Assembly (NCBI GenBank): GCA_003223835.1
Contig: QHWR01000074.1
Span: forward strand, 82,414 to 134,413
Length of the DNA stretch: 52,000 nt
Reading direction: 5' to 3'
Origin: Acidobacteriota bacterium
Lineage (GTDB): Bacteria; Acidobacteriota; Vicinamibacteria; Vicinamibacterales; 2-12-FULL-66-21
In this document: piece after piece, positions 26,871-43,633 of the stretch
Layout: each line of letters starts with the position of its first letter
How positions within the stretch are numbered: the stretch's first letter is position 1
Notes under the pieces: generated by a model
What the model was told of the DNA's origin: nothing
Database searches by the model: none
The model's input: the letters and a program-made list of their open reading frames with translations, nothing else
Translations under genes and position numbers: made by a program

Positions 26871-29213
26871 CGCGATCGCAGCGAAGCGCGGGTCGTCCCG
26901 CAGCGACTCCAGGTCCGGATCGCGGACGATGCGGGCGGCGGTGAGCCTGGGGAGCGCCTTGGCGACGCGTTCGAGCGCGGCGAGCGCGCGGTCGCGGTCG
27001 CCGCGGAGCGCGTGCAGGCAGGCGATGTAATAGCGCGTAAACGGATCGTCGGCGCCGTTTGCGACGCGGGCGTCGAAGGCCTTGAGCGCGACGTCGAAGC
27101 ACGCCGCCGCCTCCGCCGTCCGCCCCTCGCGCAGGTGCGCGGCGCCGAGCTTCACGTGCAGCTCGATCGACTGGCGATCGCGCAGCGCGTGATCGCTCGT
27201 CGAGACGAACGCCAGCTCCTTGTCGTACTCGGCGATCGCCTGCGCGTAGCGTCCCTGGAGATAGTGGACGTAGCCGTAGCGCGCGTGCGCGCCGACGATC
27301 TCGAGGCCGGCGCTGCCGGAGATGTACTGCTCCTGCAGATCGACGGCGCGGCGGCTGGCCGTCTCGGCCTCGGCGAACCGGCGCTCCCACGCGTAGAGCA
27401 GCGCCAGCTGCAGCCACGCGTAGCCCGCTTCCGGGTTCAACGCGATCGCGCGCTCGAACTCCGCGATCGATCCCTCGAAGGCCCCCTGGCCGACCCATAA
27501 CGTGCGCGCCAGGCTCGCGTGCGCCTGCGCGTTGCCGGGATCGAGGCGCACCGCCTCGCGCATCGACACGATCGCCTCGTCGATGTGGCCGAGCGTGAGG
27601 TGCGCGGAGCCGAGCCACATCTGCGCGTCGGTCAGCTGCGGATCGAGCCGCAGCGCGCGCTGCTCGAGATCGATCGCGCGGTTGGCGAGATCCGGCAGCC
27701 CCATCAGCGACGCCTTCAGGCCGTAGGCCCCGCCGAGCGCGGCCCACGCCTCCGCGTACTCCGGGTCGCGGCCGACGGCGTGCTCGAACGCGTCGATCGC
27801 CCGCTCGAGCGAATCGCGCGTGGCGTTGCGCAGGTTCAGCATGCCGCGCGCGTAGCTCTCGTACGCCTCGACCGACCGCGTTTCCTGCTTCTCGATCCCC
27901 GCGATTTCCGAGCCGCGCAGCTCCACGTTCAGCTTCTGCGTCAGCTCGTAGACGATGCGGTCCTGCAGGTCGAAGATGTCGGCGAGCGGGCCATCGACCT
28001 TGACGGTGCCCCGTTGTTCGCCGCTGTCGACCGCCACGAAGCTCGCGGTGATGCGCACGCGATCGCCGATGCGCTGGTAGCCGCCGACGACGACCCACGT
28101 CGCGCCGAGCCGGCGGCCGATGTCGATCGCGAGCCGATCGTCGAGCGTCCCCTCGGTCGCGCTCAGGTGGCGCAGCGCGTCGAACACGCGCGCGCGGCCG
28201 ATGATGATGAGGCCGTGCACGTTCTTGAGGTCCGCGCTGACGGTCTCGGCGATGCCGCTGCCGATCCAGTCGTCCGAGGGCTCGCGCGTGATGTTGGCGA
28301 ACGTCATGACCGCCACCGCGCTCGCGGGCGTCGCCACGACGAGTCCGCTGCGGATGCTCGCCGTCAGCGGCCGGTCGAAGCCGCGCGACAGATCGCGAAG
28401 ATCCGTTTTCAGATCGCCGGCCGATTGATACCGCGCCGACAGGGTCTTCTCCATCGCGCGCCGCACGATCGCGTCGAACGCGGTCGGCACCGCGGCGTTC
28501 AACTGGGACGGCGGCGGCGGCGACGCGTGCAGGACCTGATCGATGATCTCCGTCGGCGTGCTTCCCTCGAACGGCAGCCGCGCCGTCACGGCTTCGTACA
28601 GGACGACGCCGAGCGAGAAGATGTCGGACCGCCCGTCCACGGGCCGTCCGAGCGCCTGTTCCGGAGACATGTACGAAACCGTCCCGAGAATCACGCCGGC
28701 GATGGTCATCTGCGCCTGCGTCGCGGTCGGATCGGGCTGCCGGTCCGCGAATTTCGCGAGGCCGAAATCCAGGACCTTCACGACGCCGCGGCCGGTCAGC
28801 ATCAGGTTCGCGCTCTTGATGTCGCGGTGCACGATCCCGTGCCCGTGCGCTTCCTCGAGCGCGTCGGCGACCTGCACACCGATCTCAGCCGCCTCGCGGA
28901 CGCCGAGCGGTCCGCGCGTGAGCCTCTCGGACAGCACTTCGCCCTCGACGTACTCCATCGCGATGAACGCCGACCCGCCGTACTCGCCGATGTCGTAGGT
29001 GACCGCGATGTTCGGCGAGCGCAGCAGCGAGGCGGCGCGCGCTTCGTTCATCAACCGCGCGCGGCTGTCCGGATCCGCCCGGAACGCGGCGGGCAGGAAC
29101 TTCAGCGCGACGGGACGACCCAGCCGGACGTCCTCGGCGCGGTAGACCTCTCCCATGCCGCCGGCGCCGAGCCGCTCGGTGATTCGGTAATGCTGGATCG
29201 TTGTCCCGATCAA
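26862..29213 (-). CDS. Serine/threonine protein kinase with TolB-like and TPR domains
   Basis: The 783-residue protein starts at TTG 29213, overlapping the peptidase stop (TTGA), giving IGTTIQHYRITERLGAGGMG as usual for this family. The kinase domain spans about 1-265: glycine loop GAGGMGEVY, Lys in ALKFLP, HRDIKSAN near 129, DFGLAK and GTVSYMSPEQ. Residues about 298-400 (VAVMTFANITREPSDDWIGS) form a FlgO/TolB-like domain found after kinases or adenylate cyclases. TPR-like repeats fill the remainder (AEAWAALGGAYG, EAIVSMREAVRLDPGNAQAH). No membrane segment is seen, so it is cytoplasmic. It is coupled to the M61 peptidase gene. Confidence 0.9.
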   Translation of the reverse strand: MIGTTIQHYRITERLGAGGMGEVYRAEDVRLGRPVALKFLPAAFRADPDSRARLMNEARAASLLRSPNIAVTYDIGEYGGSAFIAMEYVEGEVLSERLTRGPLGVREAAEIGVQVADALEEAHGHGIVHRDIKSANLMLTGRGVVKVLDFGLAKFADRQPDPTATQAQMTIAGVILGTVSYMSPEQALGRPVDGRSDIFSLGVVLYEAVTARLPFEGSTPTEIIDQVLHASPPPPSQLNAAVPTAFDAIVRRAMEKTLSARYQSAGDLKTDLRDLSRGFDRPLTASIRSGLVVATPASAVAVMTFANITREPSDDWIGSGIAETVSADLKNVHGLIIIGRARVFDALRHLSATEGTLDDRLAIDIGRRLGATWVVVGGYQRIGDRVRITASFVAVDSGEQRGTVKVDGPLADIFDLQDRIVYELTQKLNVELRGSEIAGIEKQETRSVEAYESYARGMLNLRNATRDSLERAIDAFEHAVGRDPEYAEAWAALGGAYGLKASLMGLPDLANRAIDLEQRALRLDPQLTDAQMWLGSAHLTLGHIDEAIVSMREAVRLDPGNAQAHASLARTLWVGQGAFEGSIAEFERAIALNPEAGYAWLQLALLYAWERRFAEAETASRRAVDLQEQYISGSAGLEIVGAHARYGYVHYLQGRYAQAIAEYDKELAFVSTSDHALRDRQSIELHVKLGAAHLREGRTAEAAACFDVALKAFDARVANGADDPFTRYYIACLHALRGDRDRALAALERVAKALPRLTAARIVRDPDLESLRDDPRFAAIAQT

Positions 29214-31063
29214 TTCTTCGTTTGCCTTGATCCCAGCCACGCGTCCCTGAACGCTTTCTCCTCCGGCCTCAGTCTGCCGCCCGGCGTCGCCTCGACGAGC
29301 GTCGCCGTCAACGCCGGATCCTCCTGGAGCGTGACGGCGGCGGTCGCGGGACCGCTCCGGCGGTTGAAGGCAAGGGCGATCGTATCTCCAGGCTTGTGCG
29401 CCGCGAGCGCTTCCTGAATCTGCTGCGCGTTCGCGACGCTCTTCCCGTCCACCGCCGTCACCACATCGTCCTGCTCGAGGCCCGCGACGAACGCGGGGCT
29501 GCCCCACGGGACGAGCGTCGAGATCCGCGTACCGTCGAATCCGACGTCGCCCAGCCACGCCCGACCCGGATTGCGCCTGACCAGCGCGACGCCCGCGCGC
29601 GCGAGCAGCGTCGCGTAATCGACGACCTCGCGGCCGCGAATGTACCGCGCGACGAAATCGTCGGCGAACGCGCGGTCGCCCGATACGTCGGCCAGCCGAT
29701 CGCGGACGTCGTTGACGGAGTAGGGACGCCCGACGAGTCCGGGGGCCGGGCCGCCGGGCTTGCCGTGCACGCGCCACATCGCGCGCATGAAGTCGTCGAG
29801 CGTGATCTTTCCGGCGCTGCGCTCGCGCAGCGTCAGGTCGAGCGCCAGCGCGATGGCGCCGCCATAGCTGTAATACGAGATGAAGGTGTTCGACAGATTC
29901 GTCCGATCGATCGAACGCGCGCCGTCGGCGAAGGGCGCGGCGTGGCTCATGCCGACGGCCGAGCGGAACTGACGTCCGGGCGCGTTGATGACGTCGTTCG
30001 CGAGCCCCCCGAACGAGCCGATCGCCTGCGCCGGATCGATGAGGCCCGCGCGCGTCCGGATCAGCGGACCGTAGTACTGCGTGAAGCCCTCGCCGAGCCA
30101 GAGTGAATCCGTCAGGTTGGCGTCCTCGAAGTTGAACGGCTCGAGCCCCTCGGGCCTGATGCGCTCGACGTTCCAGCAGTGAAAGAACTCGTGGGCGGCG
30201 GTGCCGAGCGCGCCGCGCAGCGCGCGTCCCGTGACGACGGTGCTGTTACGGTGCTCCATGCCGTCGCCGCCGGCCCACGGCAGGTAGTCGGCGAGAAACG
30301 TATACGTGCCGGGCTCGTAGTCCGGAAACTCGCCGAACACCGCCTCCGCCTCCCGGACGATCTTCTCGAGGCCCGCGGCGTACTGATCGATGTCCTGATC
30401 GGACGCGTCGGAATGAACCGCCGCCCGGATCGTGTACGTCTTGCCGCCCGGGTTCGTCACGGAAAACTGCCGCAGCTTGTACGCGCTCAGCTCCGTCGGG
30501 CTGTCGAACAGGTACTGCAGGTTGGGCGCGGTGAACGTGAACGGATCGCTCGTCGGATAGAGCTGCGTCGCCGCCTTCCAGCCGGAGCCCGGCGGCGGCG
30601 TGAACGTGACGCGGACCGGGCGATCGTCGAAGCCGCGCGCCCAGATCAGGAGCGCCGGCAGATTCATGTGCGCGTGCGTCGTGTCGATCGCGAGGTATGT
30701 GCCGTCGATCGTGTCGCCGTACACCTTGTACTGGATCCGGACGGTGCCGTCGTGGCCGGCGACGTTCCACTGATGCGGGTTCACGCGCACCGCCGTCAAC
30801 TCCTTGCCGCTGCCGTCGAACGCGCGCAGGTCGAAGACGTTCTTCGCGAACTCGTGGACCGCGTAGCGGCCCGGCGAGGATCGACTCATGCGCGCCTCGA
30901 GCGCGCCCTGCACGCGCGTAAACGTCGCCTCCACCTGCGCCCATCGATGCTCCGGCGCGGGAAACGTCACCGTGTACTCGGTCCGACCGACGCCCGCCTG
31001 CGCGGCGAGCAACACGGGCAAGACCGCGATCGCGAAGAGAATCGCCCGGATCCTGAGACGCAT
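29210..31063 (-). CDS. M61-family metallopeptidase with PDZ domain
   Basis: From ATG 31063 (GGAG nine bases before) the product is 617 residues with a signal peptide (AILFAIAVLPVLLAAQA). The N-terminal beta domain is followed by AAHEFFHCWNVERIRPEGL, carrying the HEXXH zinc site, and LWLGEGFTQYY with the third ligand Glu, both typical of M61 glycyl-aminopeptidase-like enzymes. A C-terminal PDZ segment (STLVPWGSPAFVAGLEQDD, AVDGKSVANAQQIQEAL) ends the protein. It is likely periplasmic. The gene overlaps the kinase start by four bases. Confidence 0.9.
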   Translation of the reverse strand: MRLRIRAILFAIAVLPVLLAAQAGVGRTEYTVTFPAPEHRWAQVEATFTRVQGALEARMSRSSPGRYAVHEFAKNVFDLRAFDGSGKELTAVRVNPHQWNVAGHDGTVRIQYKVYGDTIDGTYLAIDTTHAHMNLPALLIWARGFDDRPVRVTFTPPPGSGWKAATQLYPTSDPFTFTAPNLQYLFDSPTELSAYKLRQFSVTNPGGKTYTIRAAVHSDASDQDIDQYAAGLEKIVREAEAVFGEFPDYEPGTYTFLADYLPWAGGDGMEHRNSTVVTGRALRGALGTAAHEFFHCWNVERIRPEGLEPFNFEDANLTDSLWLGEGFTQYYGPLIRTRAGLIDPAQAIGSFGGLANDVINAPGRQFRSAVGMSHAAPFADGARSIDRTNLSNTFISYYSYGGAIALALDLTLRERSAGKITLDDFMRAMWRVHGKPGGPAPGLVGRPYSVNDVRDRLADVSGDRAFADDFVARYIRGREVVDYATLLARAGVALVRRNPGRAWLGDVGFDGTRISTLVPWGSPAFVAGLEQDDVVTAVDGKSVANAQQIQEALAAHKPGDTIALAFNRRSGPATAAVTLQEDPALTATLVEATPGGRLRPEEKAFRDAWLGSRQTKN

Positions 31064-31093
31064 CGGAAATAACTCCGGGGTCCATCTTATACG

Positions 31094-31145
31094 GATGATG
31101 GAGGACGGATGAGAGATGGGAGATGGGGGATGAAAAGTCATCCCG
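31094..31145 (+). repeat. GGATGA/GAGATGGG word repeat in the M61-actA gap
   Basis: GGATGATGGAGGACGGATGA followed by GAGATGGGAGATGGGGGATG is a run of GATGG-type words ending in an inverted GTCATCCC. The string GGTGGAGGACGGATGACGG inside actB (33735-) uses nearly the same words. It lies immediately upstream of the putative actA promoter, within the divergent regulatory region. Confidence 0.75.
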
Positions 31146-31146
31146 T

Positions 31147-31176
31147 TTGACATCCTTGTGAAAAGTTTCACATTAT
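31147..31176 (+). promoter_or_regulatory. Promoter of the act/cox operon with CRP/FNR-type operator
   Basis: TTGACA (31147-31152) is followed 18 bases later by CATTAT (31171-31176), a good -35 and fair -10 for a housekeeping sigma factor. Between them lies the perfect palindrome TGTGAAAAGTTTCACA (31157-31172), exactly the TGTGA-N6-TCACA consensus of the CRP/FNR family. It overlaps the spacer and the first base pairs of the -10, which suits repression or spacing control rather than classical activation. The actA start is about 130 bases downstream. Confidence 0.6.
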
Positions 31177-31305
31177 TGGATCCGGTGGCTCCCGCCGGGC
31201 GTGGAAGTGGCGCGCCGCTTCGCGGCCGCACGCTGTTCCATCTTCGCAAAGCCTCCTCGTTCGGAGTAGGCTGGGGGGCGCGCGTGCGTCGCGGACGTTC
31301 AGACA

Positions 31306-31965
31306 ATGAGTCAGATCTTCCTCCGCCCCTTCAACATCTACTCGAAGCTGAGCATTGTCGTGACGGCGGTTCTCGTCGGTGGCCTCTCCATCATCGTCTT
31401 CGGCATGAGCTGGACGGGCTACGTCACCGGCCAGGGCGTCACGCGCGATCAACCGATTCAGTTCAGTCACGCACATCACGTCGGCTCGATGGGCATCGAC
31501 TGCCGCTACTGTCATTCGACGGTCGAGGAGTCCGCCTTCGCGAACATTCCGCCGACGAAGACGTGCATGAACTGCCACGCGCAAATCTGGACCAACGCGC
31601 CGATCCTCGAGCCGGTGCGCGCGAGCTTTCGCGACAATCGCCCGCTTCAGTGGTGGCGCATCCACGATTTGCCCGATTTCGTGTACTTCAACCACAGCAT
31701 CCATGTGAACAAGGGCGTGGGATGCGCCACGTGCCACGGCCAAGTCGACCGAATGCCCCTCCTCTATCAGGAAGCCTCCCTGCAGATGAGGTGGTGCCTC
31801 GATTGTCACCGCAACCCGGCCAAGTACGTGCGCCCCCGCGACCAGGTGTTCAACATGAACTGGGAGCCGCCGGCAGACGACCCCGGCCTCGGCGAACGAC
31901 TCGTCAAGGAATACAAGATCATGGACGTCCGGCAGCTCACGAGCTGCTCGACATGCCACAGGTAA
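31306..31965 (+). CDS. actA: Alternative complex III subunit A, pentahaem cytochrome c
   Basis: The 219-residue protein has one N-terminal membrane segment (LSIVVTAVLVGGLSIIVFGM) and five CXXCH motifs (CRYCH, CMNCH, CATCH, CLDCH, CSTCH), the haem count of ActA. It is the periplasmic multihaem cytochrome of the quinol:cytochrome c oxidoreductase that replaces bc1. It starts the act-cox operon. The actA-actB junction is separated by a 100-base word repeat rather than the usual tight spacing. Confidence 0.93.
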   Translation: MSQIFLRPFNIYSKLSIVVTAVLVGGLSIIVFGMSWTGYVTGQGVTRDQPIQFSHAHHVGSMGIDCRYCHSTVEESAFANIPPTKTCMNCHAQIWTNAPILEPVRASFRDNRPLQWWRIHDLPDFVYFNHSIHVNKGVGCATCHGQVDRMPLLYQEASLQMRWCLDCHRNPAKYVRPRDQVFNMNWEPPADDPGLGERLVKEYKIMDVRQLTSCSTCHR

Positions 31966-32063
31966 AGCTTCCAGCTTCCAGCCGCCAGCTTCCAGCTCTC
32001 ATGCTGGACCGAGTGCGGCACCGTTCTTAGCCGGAAGCTGGTCGCTGGAAACTGGAAGCTCGA
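31966..32063. repeat. Foldback GCTTCCAG word repeat between actA and actB
   Basis: Directly after the actA TAA come AGCTTCCAGCTTCCAGCCGC-CAGCTTCCAG on the plus strand, then GCCGGAAGCTGGTCGCTGGA-AACTGGAAGCTCG, which are the same words inverted. The first 22 bases repeat the element at 22849 with one mismatch. The block can fold into a long imperfect hairpin between two operon genes and runs to within a few bases of the point where actB coding begins. Confidence 0.85.
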
Positions 32064-32213: not shown

Positions 32214-35086
32214 ATGAGCGCGTCGCTCGCGTTGGCGGGCGTGGGCGCGTGCACGAAGCAGCCCCCCGAGAAAATCATCCCGTACGTGCGGCAGCCGGAA
32301 GATCTCGTGCCCGGCAAGCCGCTCTTCTTCGCGACGGCGCTTCCCTTCGCGGGGGTCGCGGCGCCGGTGCTCGTCGAAAGACACGAGGGACGGCCGACCA
32401 AGGTCGAAGGCAACCCGCAACATCCCGCGAGTCTCGGCGCGACCGACGCGTTCGCTCAGGCGGACGTCCTCACGCTCTACGACCCCGATCGCGCGCAGAC
32501 GGTGATGTACCGCGGCGAAGTCCGCGGGTGGGGCGATTTCCTCACCGCGAGCAGGTCGGTCCTTGCGATCCAGAAAACGAAACAGGGATCCGGCCTTCGG
32601 TTCCTCACCGAAACGATTACGTCGCCGACCGTCGGCGAACAGTTGCAGCTTCTCCAGAAGGACTTTCCCCGGGCGAAGTGGCACCAGTGGGATCCGATCA
32701 CGCGTGACGCGGCGCGCGCCGCGGCGCGGCAGAGCGCCGGCCACGCCGCCGACGCGGTCTACCACTTCGACCAGGCCGACGTCGTCGTTTCGCTCGACGC
32801 GGACTTCTTGACGGTGGGTCCGGGCCACGTTCGGTACACGAAGGATTTCTCGGCCCGCCGCCGCGTCACCGACGACAAGAAGGACATGAACCGCCTCTAC
32901 GTCGTCGAGAGCACGCCGACGCTGACGGGCGCCAAGGCGGATCACCGCCTCGCGTTGAAGGGCGCGGACGTCGAGGGCTTCGCGCGCGCGCTGGCGTCAG
33001 CGCTAGGCGCGGGCGGGGGCGCGGCGGCGACGACCGCGTCCGCAGAGTCCGCGAAGTGGGCGCCCGCGATCGCGAAGGAGCTGCAGGCGAGCCGCGGCAA
33101 GAGCCTCGTCGTCGCCGGCGACTATCAGCCGGCGTCGGTGCATGCGCTCGCGCACGCGATGAACCAGACGCTCGGCAACGTCGGGACGACGGTCACGTAC
33201 GCGCCGACGATCGAAGTGAACCCGACCGATCAGGTGTCGTCGCTGCGCGATCTCGTGCAGGCGATGGACGCCGGGCAGGTCGAGGTGCTCGTCATCGTCG
33301 GCGGGAACCCGCTCTTCACGGCGCCCGCGGATTTCCGGTTCCAGGATCGGCTCGCGAAGGTGCCGCTCGCGGTCCATCACAGCCTCTACTACGACGAGAC
33401 GTCGGCGTATTGCCACTGGAACCTGCCGATGGCGCATGCGCTCGAGAGCTGGGGCGACGCCCGCGCGTACGACGGCACCGTCACGATCGTGCAGCCGCTC
33501 ATCGCGCCGCTCTACGAGGGGCGGACGATGCACGAGCTGTTCGCGGCGTTCATCGACGCGCAGAACGGCAAGTCCGGGCACGACCTCGTGAAGGATTACT
33601 GGACGCGCGCGCACGGCGGCAAGGTTGCCGGCTGGACGATCCACGACACGGCCGGCGCGCCGTTCAAGAGCGCCGACAGCTTCTGGAAGCACGTGCTGCA
33701 CGATGGGTGGATTCCGGGAACTGCCGCAGCCGATGGTGGAGGACGGATGACGGATGGTGGAAAGGCCGGCGATGCCTCCGCGAACCGTCAACCGGCGTCC
33801 ACCATCCAACAACCGTCGTCCGCCATCCATCAACTGTCATCCGTCATCCCCGCCGCGAGCGGAGCGAGCGGCGGCCTCGAGATCATCTTCCGCCCCGACC
33901 CGCACATCTGGGACGGGCGTTTCGCGAACAACGGATGGCTGCAGGAGCTGCCGAAGCCGATCACGAAGGTCACGTGGGATCCGACGGCGTGGGTGAGCCC
34001 GCGGCTCGCGGAGCAGCGAGGGCTCAACGAAGGGGACCTGATCGAGCTGCGCTATCGCGGCAACGCCGCGCAGCTGCCGGTCGTGATCGTGCCCGGGCAA
34101 CCCGATGGATCGGTGACGGTGTTTCTCGGCTACGGGCGGCGGCGCACGGGACGGGTCGGGAGCGCCGTGACGGGCGAGTCGCAGGCGTTCGACGTCTACA
34201 AGCTGCGCTCGTCGGACGCGCTGTGGTTCGGCGACGGCCTGGAGATCGCGAAGGCGGGCGGCAAGTACGTCCTCGCGCGGACGCAGGAACATCACCTGAT
34301 GGAAGCGCCGCGGTCGCTGTCGATCGTTCCCGAGTGGGAATACAACGGCTACAAGTGGGGGATGGCGATCGATCTGTCGTCGTGCACCGGCTGCGCGACG
34401 TGCACGATCGCGTGCGTCGCGGAGAACAACATTCCGGTGGTCGGCAAGGACGAAGTGCACAAGGGACGCGACATGCACTGGATCCGCGTGGACCATTACT
34501 TCGCCGGCGATCTCGAGAACCCGGAGATGTACCACCAGCCCGTGCCGTGCATGCAGTGCGAGAACGCGCCGTGCGAGCTGGTGTGTCCGGTCGGCGCGAC
34601 CGTGCACAGCTCGGAAGGGCTGAACGACATGGTCTACAACCGGTGCGTCGGCACGCGCTACTGCTCGAACAACTGCCCGTACAAGGTCCGCCGCTTCAAC
34701 TTCCTGCTCTACTCCGACTGGGACACGAAGAGCCTCTATCCGCTGCGCAACCCGGACGTGACGATCCGGAGCCGCGGCGTCATGGAGAAGTGCACGTATT
34801 GCGTGCAGCGGATCAACGCGGCGCGGATCGAATCGGAGAAGCAGGACCGACGGATTCAGGACGGCGAGGTCGTCCCGGCGTGCGCGGCCGCCTGTCCGGC
34901 CGACGCGATCGTGTTCGGCGACCTCAACGATCCGAAGAGCCGCGTCAACACGCTGAAGGCGCAGCAGCGCGAGTACGGGCTGCTCGAGGAACTCAACACA
35001 CGTCCGCGCACCAGTTATCTGGCCGCGCTCCGGAACCCGAATCCGGAGCTGGAGTCCTCGCGCGGCGCTTCGACGACTGAGCACTG

Positions 35087-35087
<1 letters not shown>
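32214..35087 (+). CDS. actB: Alternative complex III subunit B, molybdopterin-like and iron-sulfur protein
   Basis: The ORF of 957 residues begins at the first in-frame ATG, but homology continues upstream and the Tat signal is cut by this start. Residues about 1-640 resemble a degenerate molybdopterin oxidoreductase domain. The C-terminal part is a ferredoxin-like module: CTGCATCTIACVAENN, CMQCENAPCELVCPVGAT, CVGTRYCSNNCPYKVRRF and CTYCVQR...CAAACP, binding four clusters. It takes electrons from the quinol-binding subunits. A 118-base word repeat is inserted in frame near residues 507-546. The stop overlaps actC (TGATG). Confidence 0.9.
33732..33849 (+). repeat. In-frame foldback repeat inside actB
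   Basis: GATGGTGGAGGACGGATGAC-GGATGGTGG, a spacer and then CCACCATCCAACAACC...GCCATCCATCAACTG, GTCATCC form inverted word arrays. The segment keeps the actB frame and encodes a low-complexity Gly/Ala/Ser/Gln linker (GGGRMTDGGKAG, PASTIQQPSSAIHQLSS). It sits between the molybdopterin-like part and the segment LEIIFRPDPHIWDGR. GATGG words are shared with the element at 31094. Confidence 0.8.
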
Positions 35088-36465
<1,378 letters not shown>

Positions 36466-36466
<1 letters not shown>

Positions 36467-37002
36467 TGGCCGACCCGGCGCTCCACGGCGTCCTCGCGGA
36501 GTTCGACAACCCGACGAGCCTGCTCAACGCCGCGCACAAGGCGCGCGAGGCGGGCTACCGCGACCTCGACGCGTTCACGCCGTACCCGATCGAGGAGATC
36601 TCGGACGCGATCGGGTTCCACGATCGGCGGCTGTCGAAGATCGTGCTGGGGGGCGGGCTCGCGGGCATGCTCGCGGGCTACGGGCTGCAGTACTGGGTGC
36701 ACGCGGTTACGTATCCGATCAACGTCGCGGGAAAGCCGCCGAACAGCTGGCCGCAGTTCGTGCCGGTGACCTTCGAGCTGACGATCCTCTTCTCGGCGCT
36801 CGCCGCCGTCATCGGGATGATCGTCCTCAACGGGCTGCCGATGCCGTACCACCCGGTGTTCAACGTGCCGCGCTTCTCGAACGCCAGCCGCGACCGCTTC
36901 TTCCTGCTCGTCGAGGCGACCGACCCGAAGTTCGATCGCAAGCAGACGATGGACTTCCTGAAAACGCTGCAGGCGCGCGAAGTCAGCGAGGTGGAACCGT
37001 GA
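36466..37002 (+). CDS. actD: Alternative complex III subunit D (DUF3341)
   Basis: The 178-residue protein has HGVLAEFDNPTSLLNAAHKA and ARLE-like YRDLDAFTPYPIEEISDAIG at the N-terminus. Two membrane segments follow (IVLGGGLAGMLAGYGLQYWV, VTFELTILFSALAAVIGMIV). This layout is typical of ActD/DUF3341. TGATG overlap couples it to actC. The 60 bases between its stop and actE contain the inverted actC copy. Confidence 0.92.
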
Positions 37003-37045: not shown

Positions 37046-37081
37046 GCAGGCTCGTGACGACGATGACGAAGCGCTCGAGCC
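37046..37081 (-). repeat. Inverted 36-base copy of actC coding sequence
   Basis: Bases 37046-37081 are the exact reverse complement of 36240-36275 inside actC (the codons for LERFVIVVTSL and neighbours). The match stops abruptly at both ends. It overlaps the 5' end of actE and supplies part of its leader sequence. Confidence 0.92.
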
Positions 37082-37692
37082 GCAGGCGCTTCTCCTGTCT
37101 CCTGTCTTCTGTCTCCTGCTCCTGTCTTCTGTTCATGGCCTGCCGTCAGGACATGCACAACCAGCCGAAGTACATCCCGCTGCGCGAGAGCGAGTTCTTC
37201 GCGGACGGTTCGAGCGCGCGGCCGCTCGTCGAGGATACCGTTGCGCGCGGCACCCTCCAGGACGACTCGGCGTTCTACACGGGCAAGAGCGGCACGCAGG
37301 AGCTGGACACGCTGCCGTTGCCGCTGACGAAGGAACTGCTCGACCGCGGCGAGGCGCGCTACAACATCTTCTGCGCCCCGTGCCACGACCGGCGCGGCAA
37401 CGGCGTCGGCATGATCGTCCACCGCGGCTACCGCCAGCCGCCGTCGTACCACATCGACCGGCTGCGGCAGGTCCCGATCGGGCATTTCTTCGACGTCATC
37501 ACCAACGGGTTCGGCGCGATGCCCGACTATCGCGCGCAGATCCCGCCGCGCGATCGCTGGGCGATCGCGGCCTACATCCGCGCGCTGCAGCTCAGCCAGC
37601 ACGCGTCGGCCGCCGATATTCCCGCGCCGGAGCGCGACAAGCTCTCGCAAACGTCGGCGCCGCCGCAGGGAACGGAGAAGCGCGAACACTGA
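37063..37692 (+). CDS. actE: Alternative complex III subunit E, monohaem cytochrome c lipoprotein
   Basis: The mature part contains PLTKELLDRGEARYNIFCAP with CAPCHDRRGNGVG, one CXXCH haem, and an FGAMPDYRAQIPPRDRWAI axial Met segment, as in ActE. ATG 37063 or GTG 37054 is the start. The N-terminal signal (SCLLSSVSCSCLLFMAC) is lipoprotein-like but its lipobox is imperfect, and it is made of CTGTCTTCTG/CTCCTG words. Its leader partly arises from the inverted actC copy, so the ordinary signal sequence seems to have been rebuilt. Its stop overlaps actF (TGATG). Confidence 0.87.
   Translation: MTKRSSRRRFSCLLSSVSCSCLLFMACRQDMHNQPKYIPLRESEFFADGSSARPLVEDTVARGTLQDDSAFYTGKSGTQELDTLPLPLTKELLDRGEARYNIFCAPCHDRRGNGVGMIVHRGYRQPPSYHIDRLRQVPIGHFFDVITNGFGAMPDYRAQIPPRDRWAIAAYIRALQLSQHASAADIPAPERDKLSQTSAPPQGTEKREH
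37091..37134 (+). repeat. TCTCCTGTCTTCTG word repeat encoding the actE signal peptide
   Basis: CTTCTCCTGTCTCCTGTCTT-CTGTCTCCTGCTCCTGTCTTCTG repeats CCTGTCTTCTGT/CTCCTG five times in the coding strand of actE, giving the residues SCLLSSVSCSCLLF. The repeat unit is not a multiple of three, so the protein is not itself repetitive. Confidence 0.8.
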
Positions 37693-39418: not shown

Positions 39419-40282
39419 ATGCAGATGTCCAGCAAGACCGCGGCAGCCGCAACGCTGCTGGCCGTGTTGATGACGCCCACGCTGGCGCGCGCCCAGGCGA
39501 TGGGCGCCGAGCCGCCGGAGCTGAATCCGTCGACCAAGAAGCCGCGGATTCTCGAGCAAGTCGGCGTCGATCAGCGGATCGGCCATCAGGTGCCGCCGGA
39601 CCTGAGGTTCCGCGACGAGACGGGGCGGGACGTCAGGATCGGCGACTACTTCGGCCGGCGGCCGGTCGTCCTCGCGCTCGCGTACTACAACTGCCCGATG
39701 CTGTGCACCCAGGTCCTCAACGGAATCGTGGGGACGCTGAAAACACTGGCGTTCCAGCCGGGGCGCGACTACGAGGTCGTCGTCGTCAGCATCGACCCGC
39801 GGGAGGGACCGAGGCTGGCGGCCGAAAAGAAAGCGACGTACGTGAAACATTTCGACCGCCGCGAGACGGCGCCCGCGTGGCACTTCCTCACCGGGAAGGA
39901 CGAGCACATCCACGCGCTGGCCGCGGCCGTCGGGTTCCGTTACCAGTACGACCAGAACATCGATCAGTTCGCGCACGCCGCGGTCTTCGAGATTCTGACG
40001 CCGGCCGGCGTCGTGTCGCACTACTTCTACGGGATCGAATTCGCGCCGCGCGACGTGAAGTTCGCGTTGATCCAGTCGTCGGGCAACACGCTCGGCAGCG
40101 CCGTGGACCAGGTGCTGCTGCTCTGCTACCACTACGATCCGGCGAGCGGCAAGTACGGCGCGAGCATCATCAACGCGGTGCGCGCGGGCGGGATCCTGCT
40201 CATCGCGGCGTTCGGCACGTTCCTGTTCGTGAACCTGCGGCGCGAGCGCGCGCAGGCGCGCCACATCGAGGGCCGTCTCTAG
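39419..40282 (+). CDS. SCO1/SenC-family copper chaperone
   Basis: The 287-residue protein has a signal peptide (LLAVLMTPTLARAQA), a thioredoxin-like fold with the copper-binding NCPMLCTQVL (CxxxC) near residue 96 and the conserved His in FAHAAVFEIL near residue 185. A C-terminal membrane segment (LLIAAFGTFLFVNL) anchors it. SCO proteins deliver copper to the CuA site of cytochrome oxidase subunit II, which is the next gene. It is four bases upstream of coxB. Confidence 0.93.
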   Translation: MQMSSKTAAAATLLAVLMTPTLARAQAMGAEPPELNPSTKKPRILEQVGVDQRIGHQVPPDLRFRDETGRDVRIGDYFGRRPVVLALAYYNCPMLCTQVLNGIVGTLKTLAFQPGRDYEVVVVSIDPREGPRLAAEKKATYVKHFDRRETAPAWHFLTGKDEHIHALAAAVGFRYQYDQNIDQFAHAAVFEILTPAGVVSHYFYGIEFAPRDVKFALIQSSGNTLGSAVDQVLLLCYHYDPASGKYGASIINAVRAGGILLIAAFGTFLFVNLRRERAQARHIEGRL

Positions 40283-40285
40283 ACG

Positions 40286-41313
40286 ATGTTCGAGAATCTT
40301 CCGCTCTTTCCGGAGCAGGCGTCGGAGCAGGCCGCGCAGGTCGACGCGCTGTTTTTCTTCCTCGTCGCCGTCTCCGCCTTTTTCGCGATTCTGATCGCGA
40401 TGATGGTCGCGGTGTTCGCGGTGAAGTTCCACCGGCGGCGGCAGGACGAGGTCGGCGACGCGATCCACGGGTCGATTCCGCTCGAGCTGTTCTGGACCTT
40501 CATCCCGCTCGGCATCACGATGGTGATGTTCGTGTGGGGCGCGTGGCTCTTCTTCCATCTGACCCGAGCGCCCAAAGGGGCGATGGAGGTCTACGTCGTC
40601 GGGAAGCAGTGGATGTGGAAGGTCGAGCACATGGACGGGCAGCGCGAGATCAACGAGCTGCACGTGCCCGTCGGCCGGCCGGTGAAGTTGATCATGGGGT
40701 CCGAGGACGTGATCCACAGCTTCTTCATTCCTGCGTTCCGGGTGAAAGCGGACGTCATCCCCGGGCGCTACAACACGATGTGGTTCACGGCGAACGCCCC
40801 GGGGCGGTATCACATCTTCTGCACGCAGTACTGCGGCACGAAGCACGCCGCGATGATCGGGTGGGTGACGGCCATGGAGCCCGCCGGCTACCAGGCGTGG
40901 CGGAGCGGCGGCGGCGCGACGGGCGGTCCCGTCGAAAACGGTGCAAAGCTCTTTCAGGACCTGGCGTGCAACACGTGCCACAAGGAGGACGGGTCGGGGC
41001 GCGGTCCCGTGCTGAAAGGACTCTTCGGAAAAGAGGTGCAGCTCTCGAGCGGGCAGACCATCACCGTCGACGAAGCCTACGTGCGCGAGTCGATCCTGAA
41101 TCCACAGGCGAAGGTGGCCGCGGGGTTCCAGCCGATCATGCCGACGTTCCAGGGGCTCGTCAGTGAAGAGCAGGTCCTGCAGCTGATCGCGTACGTGAAG
41201 TCGCTCAGCGGTGAAGGAAGCGCGGCGCCCGGCACGTCGGCGACGCAGGCCCCGTCGCCGGCCGGCGGCGCGCAGCCGCCCGCGCCTCCGGCGAAGAAAT
41301 CCGGGATGAACTG

Positions 41314-41314
<1 letters not shown>
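40286..41314 (+). CDS. coxB: Cytochrome c oxidase subunit II with fused cytochrome c (caa3 type)
   Basis: The 342-residue protein has two membrane helices, a CuA domain with [14 protein letters not shown] and [12 protein letters not shown] ligands, and a C-terminal cytochrome c with [14 protein letters not shown] near residue 233 and an axial Met in PIMPTFQGL. The fused haem accepts electrons from ActE-type cytochromes. The last 35 residues are Ala/Pro/Gly-rich. TGATG overlap with coxA. Confidence 0.94.
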
Positions 41315-42925
<1,611 letters not shown>

Positions 42926-42933
<8 letters not shown>

Positions 42934-43633
42934 CGGACACGCGCACGCGGCGCCGCTCGACGCGCACGGCCACCCGCACGAGCCCGCGCACCCGAAGCTG
43001 CAGCATCACTTCGACGACATGGGCCAGCGGGCCGAGGCGTCGACGCTCGGCATGTGGGTGTTCCTCGTCACCGAGATCCTGTTCTTCGGCGGGCTGTTCA
43101 TGTGCTACCTGGTGTACCGGTGGAAATCGCCGTCCGGATTCCAGGAGGCGAGCTTCGAGCTCAACCGCGTGTGGGGCGCGACGAACACCGCCGTCCTCAT
43201 CATCAGCTCGCTGACGATGGCGCTCGCGGTGCGCGCGGCGCAGACGAGCGCGAAGCGCGGGACGCAGGTCTTCTTCCTCGGGCTGACGATGTTCTTCGGG
43301 CTCGTGTTCCTCGGAATCAAGGCGATCGAATACACGGACAAGTTCGTGCACCATCACGTGCCGGGCCCGCATTTCCACTGGGACGGCCAGTACCCGAAGC
43401 CGGCGGAGCAGTTCTACTCGCTCTATTTCGCGATGACCGGTCTTCACGCGGTCCACATGATCGTGGGCGTCGGAATCATGGCGGTCATCACCTGGATGGC
43501 GTGGCGCGAAACGTTCGACGAGGACTACTACACCCCGGTCGAAGTCGCAGGGCTGTACTGGCACTTCGTGGACATCGTGTGGATTTTCCTGTTCCCGCTG
43601 CTGTATCTCATCGGAGGCCATTTCAAGGGGTAG
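42926..43633 (+). CDS. coxC: Cytochrome c oxidase subunit III
   Basis: From TTG 42926 the 235-residue protein has a His-rich N-terminus, five membrane helices beginning with [20 protein letters not shown], and [20 protein letters not shown] at the C-terminus, typical of subunit III. It stabilises subunit I. The start overlaps coxA and is not an ATG. Confidence 0.92.

Follow-up and report, generated by a model that had tools for sequence, protein, structure and literature searches.

Rex binds its operator and represses transcription when bound to NAD+, and NADH releases it from DNA (PMC8836258, PMC5355995). The published operator consensus is TTGTGAANNNNTTCACAA (PMC5317091, PMC5355995), and comparative genomics of Rex regulons (Ravcheev et al. 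2012), as far as it is cited in PMC5317091, gives this common consensus together with the same NADH-release logic. For Rex of Thermotoga maritima, the DNA contacts are Gln46, Arg48, Lys49, Gly61, and Tyr64 (PMC8836258). In Streptomyces, experiments have established nuo, atp, and rex as targets, and footprinting in S. avermitilis placed the Rex sites of nuoA1 and atpI between the -35 and -10 elements (PMC5355995).

Here, a palindrome in the promoter of an act-cox operon of an Acidobacteriota bacterium was analyzed in a 52-kb window (the whole stretch of DNA studied) and across related genomes. The palindrome is very probably a Rex operator, as predicted from its sequence, its conservation, and the regulators encoded in the genome, with Rex sensing NAD(H). 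It has the same 18-bp consensus and the same respiratory kind of target as the S. avermitilis operators of nuoA1, atpI, cydA1, and rex-hemA, shares the -35/-10 placement of nuoA1 and atpI, and ends in CACAT like the nuoA1 site (PMC5355995). The system differs from that of Streptomyces in the phylum, in the neighbor of rex (moaC here, hemA there), and in the terminal branch, which is alternative complex III plus a heme-copper oxidase rather than cytochrome bd.

The act-cox promoter and its operator

A consensus scan of positions 30500-32000 found one sigma-70-like promoter match against 0.1 expected. Its -35 hexamer TTGACA (31147..31152, plus strand) and -10 hexamer CATTAT (31171..31176, plus strand) are 18 bp apart and were also recovered in the alignment of relatives; the -10 is a weak match, with four of six bases. 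Motif and promoter scans placed the palindrome between these hexamers, at the positions that the original prediction had given. The exact TGTGA-N6-TCACA sequence, TGTGAAAAGTTTCACA, occupies 31157-31172 and is the only exact match in the window. The conserved unit is one base longer on each side than this palindrome, namely the 18-mer TTGTGAAAAGTTTCACAT (31156..31173, plus strand), a candidate Rex operator (ROP) with one mismatch to TTGTGAANNNNTTCACAA. Allowing one mismatch at most, a scan for TTGTGAANNNNTTCACAA found this site alone in the window and none in 100 dinucleotide shuffles. The inner 16 bp form an exact CRP consensus because the Rex motif contains the CRP consensus. The operator and the -10 hexamer share three bases, the last of the former and the first of the latter. 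An operator within the act-cox promoter thus has support from the sequence, and its position would suit the proposed block of polymerase from the spacer.

The genes downstream, all on the plus strand, carry Pfam domains that bear out the reading of the operon as alternative complex III plus an oxygen reductase. The first is actA, a multiheme cytochrome c (31306..31965; Cytochrome_C7; start aligned with relatives), followed by actB, the molybdopterin-like/FeS subunit of alternative complex III (32214..35087; Fer4_7, Molydop_binding), actC, an NrfD-like membrane subunit (35087..36466; NrfD), actD (36466..37002, with an approximate start; ActD, 2.4e-65), and an actE-like monoheme cytochrome c (37054..37692; Cytochrome_CBB3). 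A SCO1/SenC copper chaperone (39419..40282; SCO1-SenC) precedes cox subunits II (with a cytochrome c domain), I, and III (40286..43633; COX2, Cytochrom_C, COX1, COX3). The gene order after actA is ActB, ActC, ActD, cytochrome c, SCO1, COX2, COX1, COX3, and COX4.

Divergent from actA lies a gene for an M61 glycyl aminopeptidase with a PDZ domain (29213-31063, minus strand); the gene starts near 31063, and the open reading frame listed at 30246-31085, which overlaps it, is spurious. Control of this peptidase gene by the site was considered and rejected. A match to this neighbor was found in just 3 of the 36 act regions of relatives, and the site therefore goes with act.

Conservation of the promoter-operator module

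The original prediction had staked itself on conservation of the palindrome upstream of related act operons, and such conservation was found. Among 37 act operons of the order (DNA upstream of actB from 36 relatives plus the window), 27 had a site upstream of actA with two mismatches or fewer, compared with 1 of 3,700 Markov shuffles. In general, 52 of the 60 relatives had at least one site at no more than one mismatch, and the reversed pattern matched in one genome. Sequences related to actB were present in all 60 relatives searched, some of them merely paralogous or partial.

When 22 act promoters were aligned, TTGACA, two to three bases, TTGTGAANNNTTTCACA, and [T/C][T/C]AT followed one another in fixed order, with TTGACA two to three bases ahead of the operator in every case. 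Thirteen of the 14 specified operator positions were invariant. At operator position 18, 21 of 22 promoters have the off-consensus T. This base doubles as the third of the -10 hexamer, which accounts for its retention; the hexamer reads CA[T/C]YAT in the relatives with its final A and T invariant. Conservation fell at the edges of TTGACA-operator-CATYAT, with flanks that were near random, and the distance to actA varied from 60 to 252 bp. The arrangement is best read as one putative functional module, conserved and moving together relative to actA. When 297 genomes of the phylum were scanned, 7 contained the exact composite of promoter and operator; each belongs to the same order and has it at an act promoter.

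In more distant genomes, sites with zero or one mismatch stand at the corresponding place before act operons (L081, L076, L089, and L025); these lack the TTGACA/CATYAT frame. Five relatives have second act operons (L276-L280; ActA about 45% identical) without a Rex site, and control therefore differs between the paralogous complexes. In addition, six Rex-bearing genomes (G012, G033, G040, G048, G052, and G055) have no site at act. The link between Rex and act is not universal.

Even with a Rex operator in place, Rex might only modulate the promoter while another, unseen regulator dominates. A precedent is atpI of S. avermitilis, which has a Rex site and whose expression declines when oxygen is limiting, whether or not rex is present (PMC5355995). 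Against such a regulator at act-cox, no second conserved motif was visible in the 40 bp flanking the module upstream or downstream, and we consider its dominance unlikely.

Rex and CRP/FNR proteins as candidate regulators

The host genome encodes one PF06971 protein, its sole canonical Rex (L001 1450-2220; NCBIfam Rex, 1.6e-71), in which the winged helix-turn-helix (HTH) PF06971 is joined to the NAD(H)-binding Rossmann domain PF02629. Its nearest solved structures are those of Thermus Rex (3IKV/3IKT), and moaC lies immediately downstream of the gene. The recognition helix QIRKDL and the wing GVRGVGY match the DNA-contact residues of T. maritima Rex, and both are retained in nearly all relatives.

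The original prediction had named a regulator of the CRP/FNR family, with cAMP, oxygen, NO, or redox state as its signal, as the protein that blocks the promoter from the spacer. In favor of it, TGTGA-N6-TCACA is exact at the site, and the search for CRP/FNR genes did find four clear CRP-type HTH (HTH_Crp_2) proteins in the host genome. The residues for reading TGTGA are missing from them, however. CRP reads TGTGA through E181 and R185. The recognition helices of the four proteins (IQRPTVSV, TNRPTVSV, ATRSRVNF, and TTRARVNF) have no equivalents of these residues, and neither the CRP (R-E...R) nor the FNR (E..SR) helix was present among the four, in an assembly that is 93% complete and could lack one such gene. 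FNR sites have the form TTGAT-N4-ATCAA. For CRP sites, the inner 16 bp are alike, but the co-occurrence and the regulon do not fit. There are just three exact CRP-type sites in the 5.75-Mb genome, the act-cox site included, and the conserved stretch is the 18-bp Rex motif, which exceeds the CRP core.

The distribution of sites across genomes points the same way. In three genomes (G041, G045, and G053), Rex and the sites are present without any HTH_Crp_2 match. In one family (f5), Rex is absent from two genomes (G015 and G028, which have HTH_Crp_2 and no sites) and represented only by a divergent form in three (G038, G047, and G056). All five of these genomes have nuoA, four have a CRP-type HTH above the cut-off, and act is assembled in three; sites were found at none of the three act operons and at none of the four nuoA genes tested. 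The only site in the family lies beside the divergent rex gene of G047. This comparison concerns one clade with one or a few loss events, and its Fisher p of 0.015 ignores shared ancestry. Across genomes, the predicted sites follow Rex, not CRP.

A CRP/FNR regulator was rejected because of the recognition helices, the number of sites, and the pattern of co-occurrence, and it must be regarded as very improbable; the 18-bp motif and the sites at nuo, atp, nadA, and rex also favor Rex. Of the redox-dependent repression first proposed, a redox signal remains likely, but it would act through NADH/NAD+ and not through O2, NO, or cAMP directly. A functionless chance palindrome, which a single site always permits in principle, was rejected as extremely improbable on the window shuffles, the retention of the site at act operons relative to shuffles, and the confinement of the exact composite to act promoters of one order.

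The predicted Rex regulon and its proposed mode of control

The host genome has two sites at no more than one mismatch, that of act-cox and TTGAGAAAAGATTCACAA ahead of nuoA; the reversed pattern gave none. The second strong candidate Rex site, TTGAGAAAAGATTCACAA, is located at L007 1501-1518 (G000:C277:16726-16743), starting 41 bp before nuoA, and the run nuoA-nuoB-nuoC follows it. The nuoA site is asymmetric: the half-site TTCACAAGC is strongly kept in relatives, and the other half varies (TTGAGAA, TTGCGAA). Three sites with two mismatches (L009, L010, and L011) were set aside; each falls within or next to an unrelated reading frame and appears to be a chance match. At up to two mismatches, no atp or nadA site was seen in the host genome.

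All nine genomes tested from the host's own family carry a nuoA site with two mismatches or fewer, and such sites precede nuoA in at least seven further families. Genes next to these companion sites were checked with Pfam on representatives. In several families of the order, Rex-type sites stand ahead of F-type ATP synthase operons, at atpI/atpB (L101, L102, L103, L112, L118, L120, L136, and L138). Directly before nadA, the gene for quinolinate synthase, they were seen in L110, L133, L137, L146, L149, and L156; NAD synthesis seems to be under an NAD(H) sensor in several families. Sites also precede some rex genes and an MbhD-like (Mrp/hydrogenase-type) membrane operon.

At a low NADH/NAD+ ratio, dimeric Rex-NAD+ would sit on the act-cox site, covering the spacer and the -10 hexamer and keeping RNA polymerase off TTGACA/CATTAT. 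When NADH accumulates, through low oxygen or excess reductant, NADH-bound Rex would leave the DNA. Transcription of the act-cox operon would then accompany that of nuo, which has the other strong site upstream, and electron input and quinol-to-oxygen output would rise together. The quinol-oxidizing complex and the oxygen reductase are thus probably turned on as NADH builds up; we infer repression by analogy with characterized Rex proteins.

With moderate confidence, we propose that in the order (probably Vicinamibacterales) Rex is a single NADH thermostat for the entire aerobic chain: complex I, alternative complex III, and the terminal oxidase, joined by ATP synthase and NAD synthesis in some families. 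Alternative complex III would then join the Rex targets for the first time, and promoter and operator would have shifted jointly with respect to actA. The operator itself is of a known kind; the act-cox target in Acidobacteriota was not found described. Our literature search found no Rex repressor in Acidobacteriota and no regulatory link between Rex and alternative complex III, Ravcheev et al. 2012 being outside this comparison. Alternative complex III is widespread, and no account of Rex control of its genes was found. For a large group of bacteria, most of them uncultured, the predicted operator names both a regulator and its signal (NADH/NAD+) and yields a prediction that can be tested. 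In addition, wherever TGTGA-N6-TCACA occurs in a respiratory promoter, the 18-bp Rex form should be looked for before the sequence is assigned to CRP.

Other genes in the relatives are also preceded by such sites. Promoters of the form TTGAC-[Rex site]-AAT lie directly ahead of an ABC/FtsX-type exporter gene (L104, L105, and L132) and before the gene for a putative exported small protein with the motif RVQDRDTGRDSRA (L124, L128, L129, and L162). Neither exporter nor exported-protein genes of this type are usual Rex targets. In two genomes (L117 of G047 and L142 of G052), a site lies directly upstream of the gene for a Rex-like protein of divergent sequence (about 32% identical, with QVRRDL and a changed wing), and this gene is probably self-regulated.
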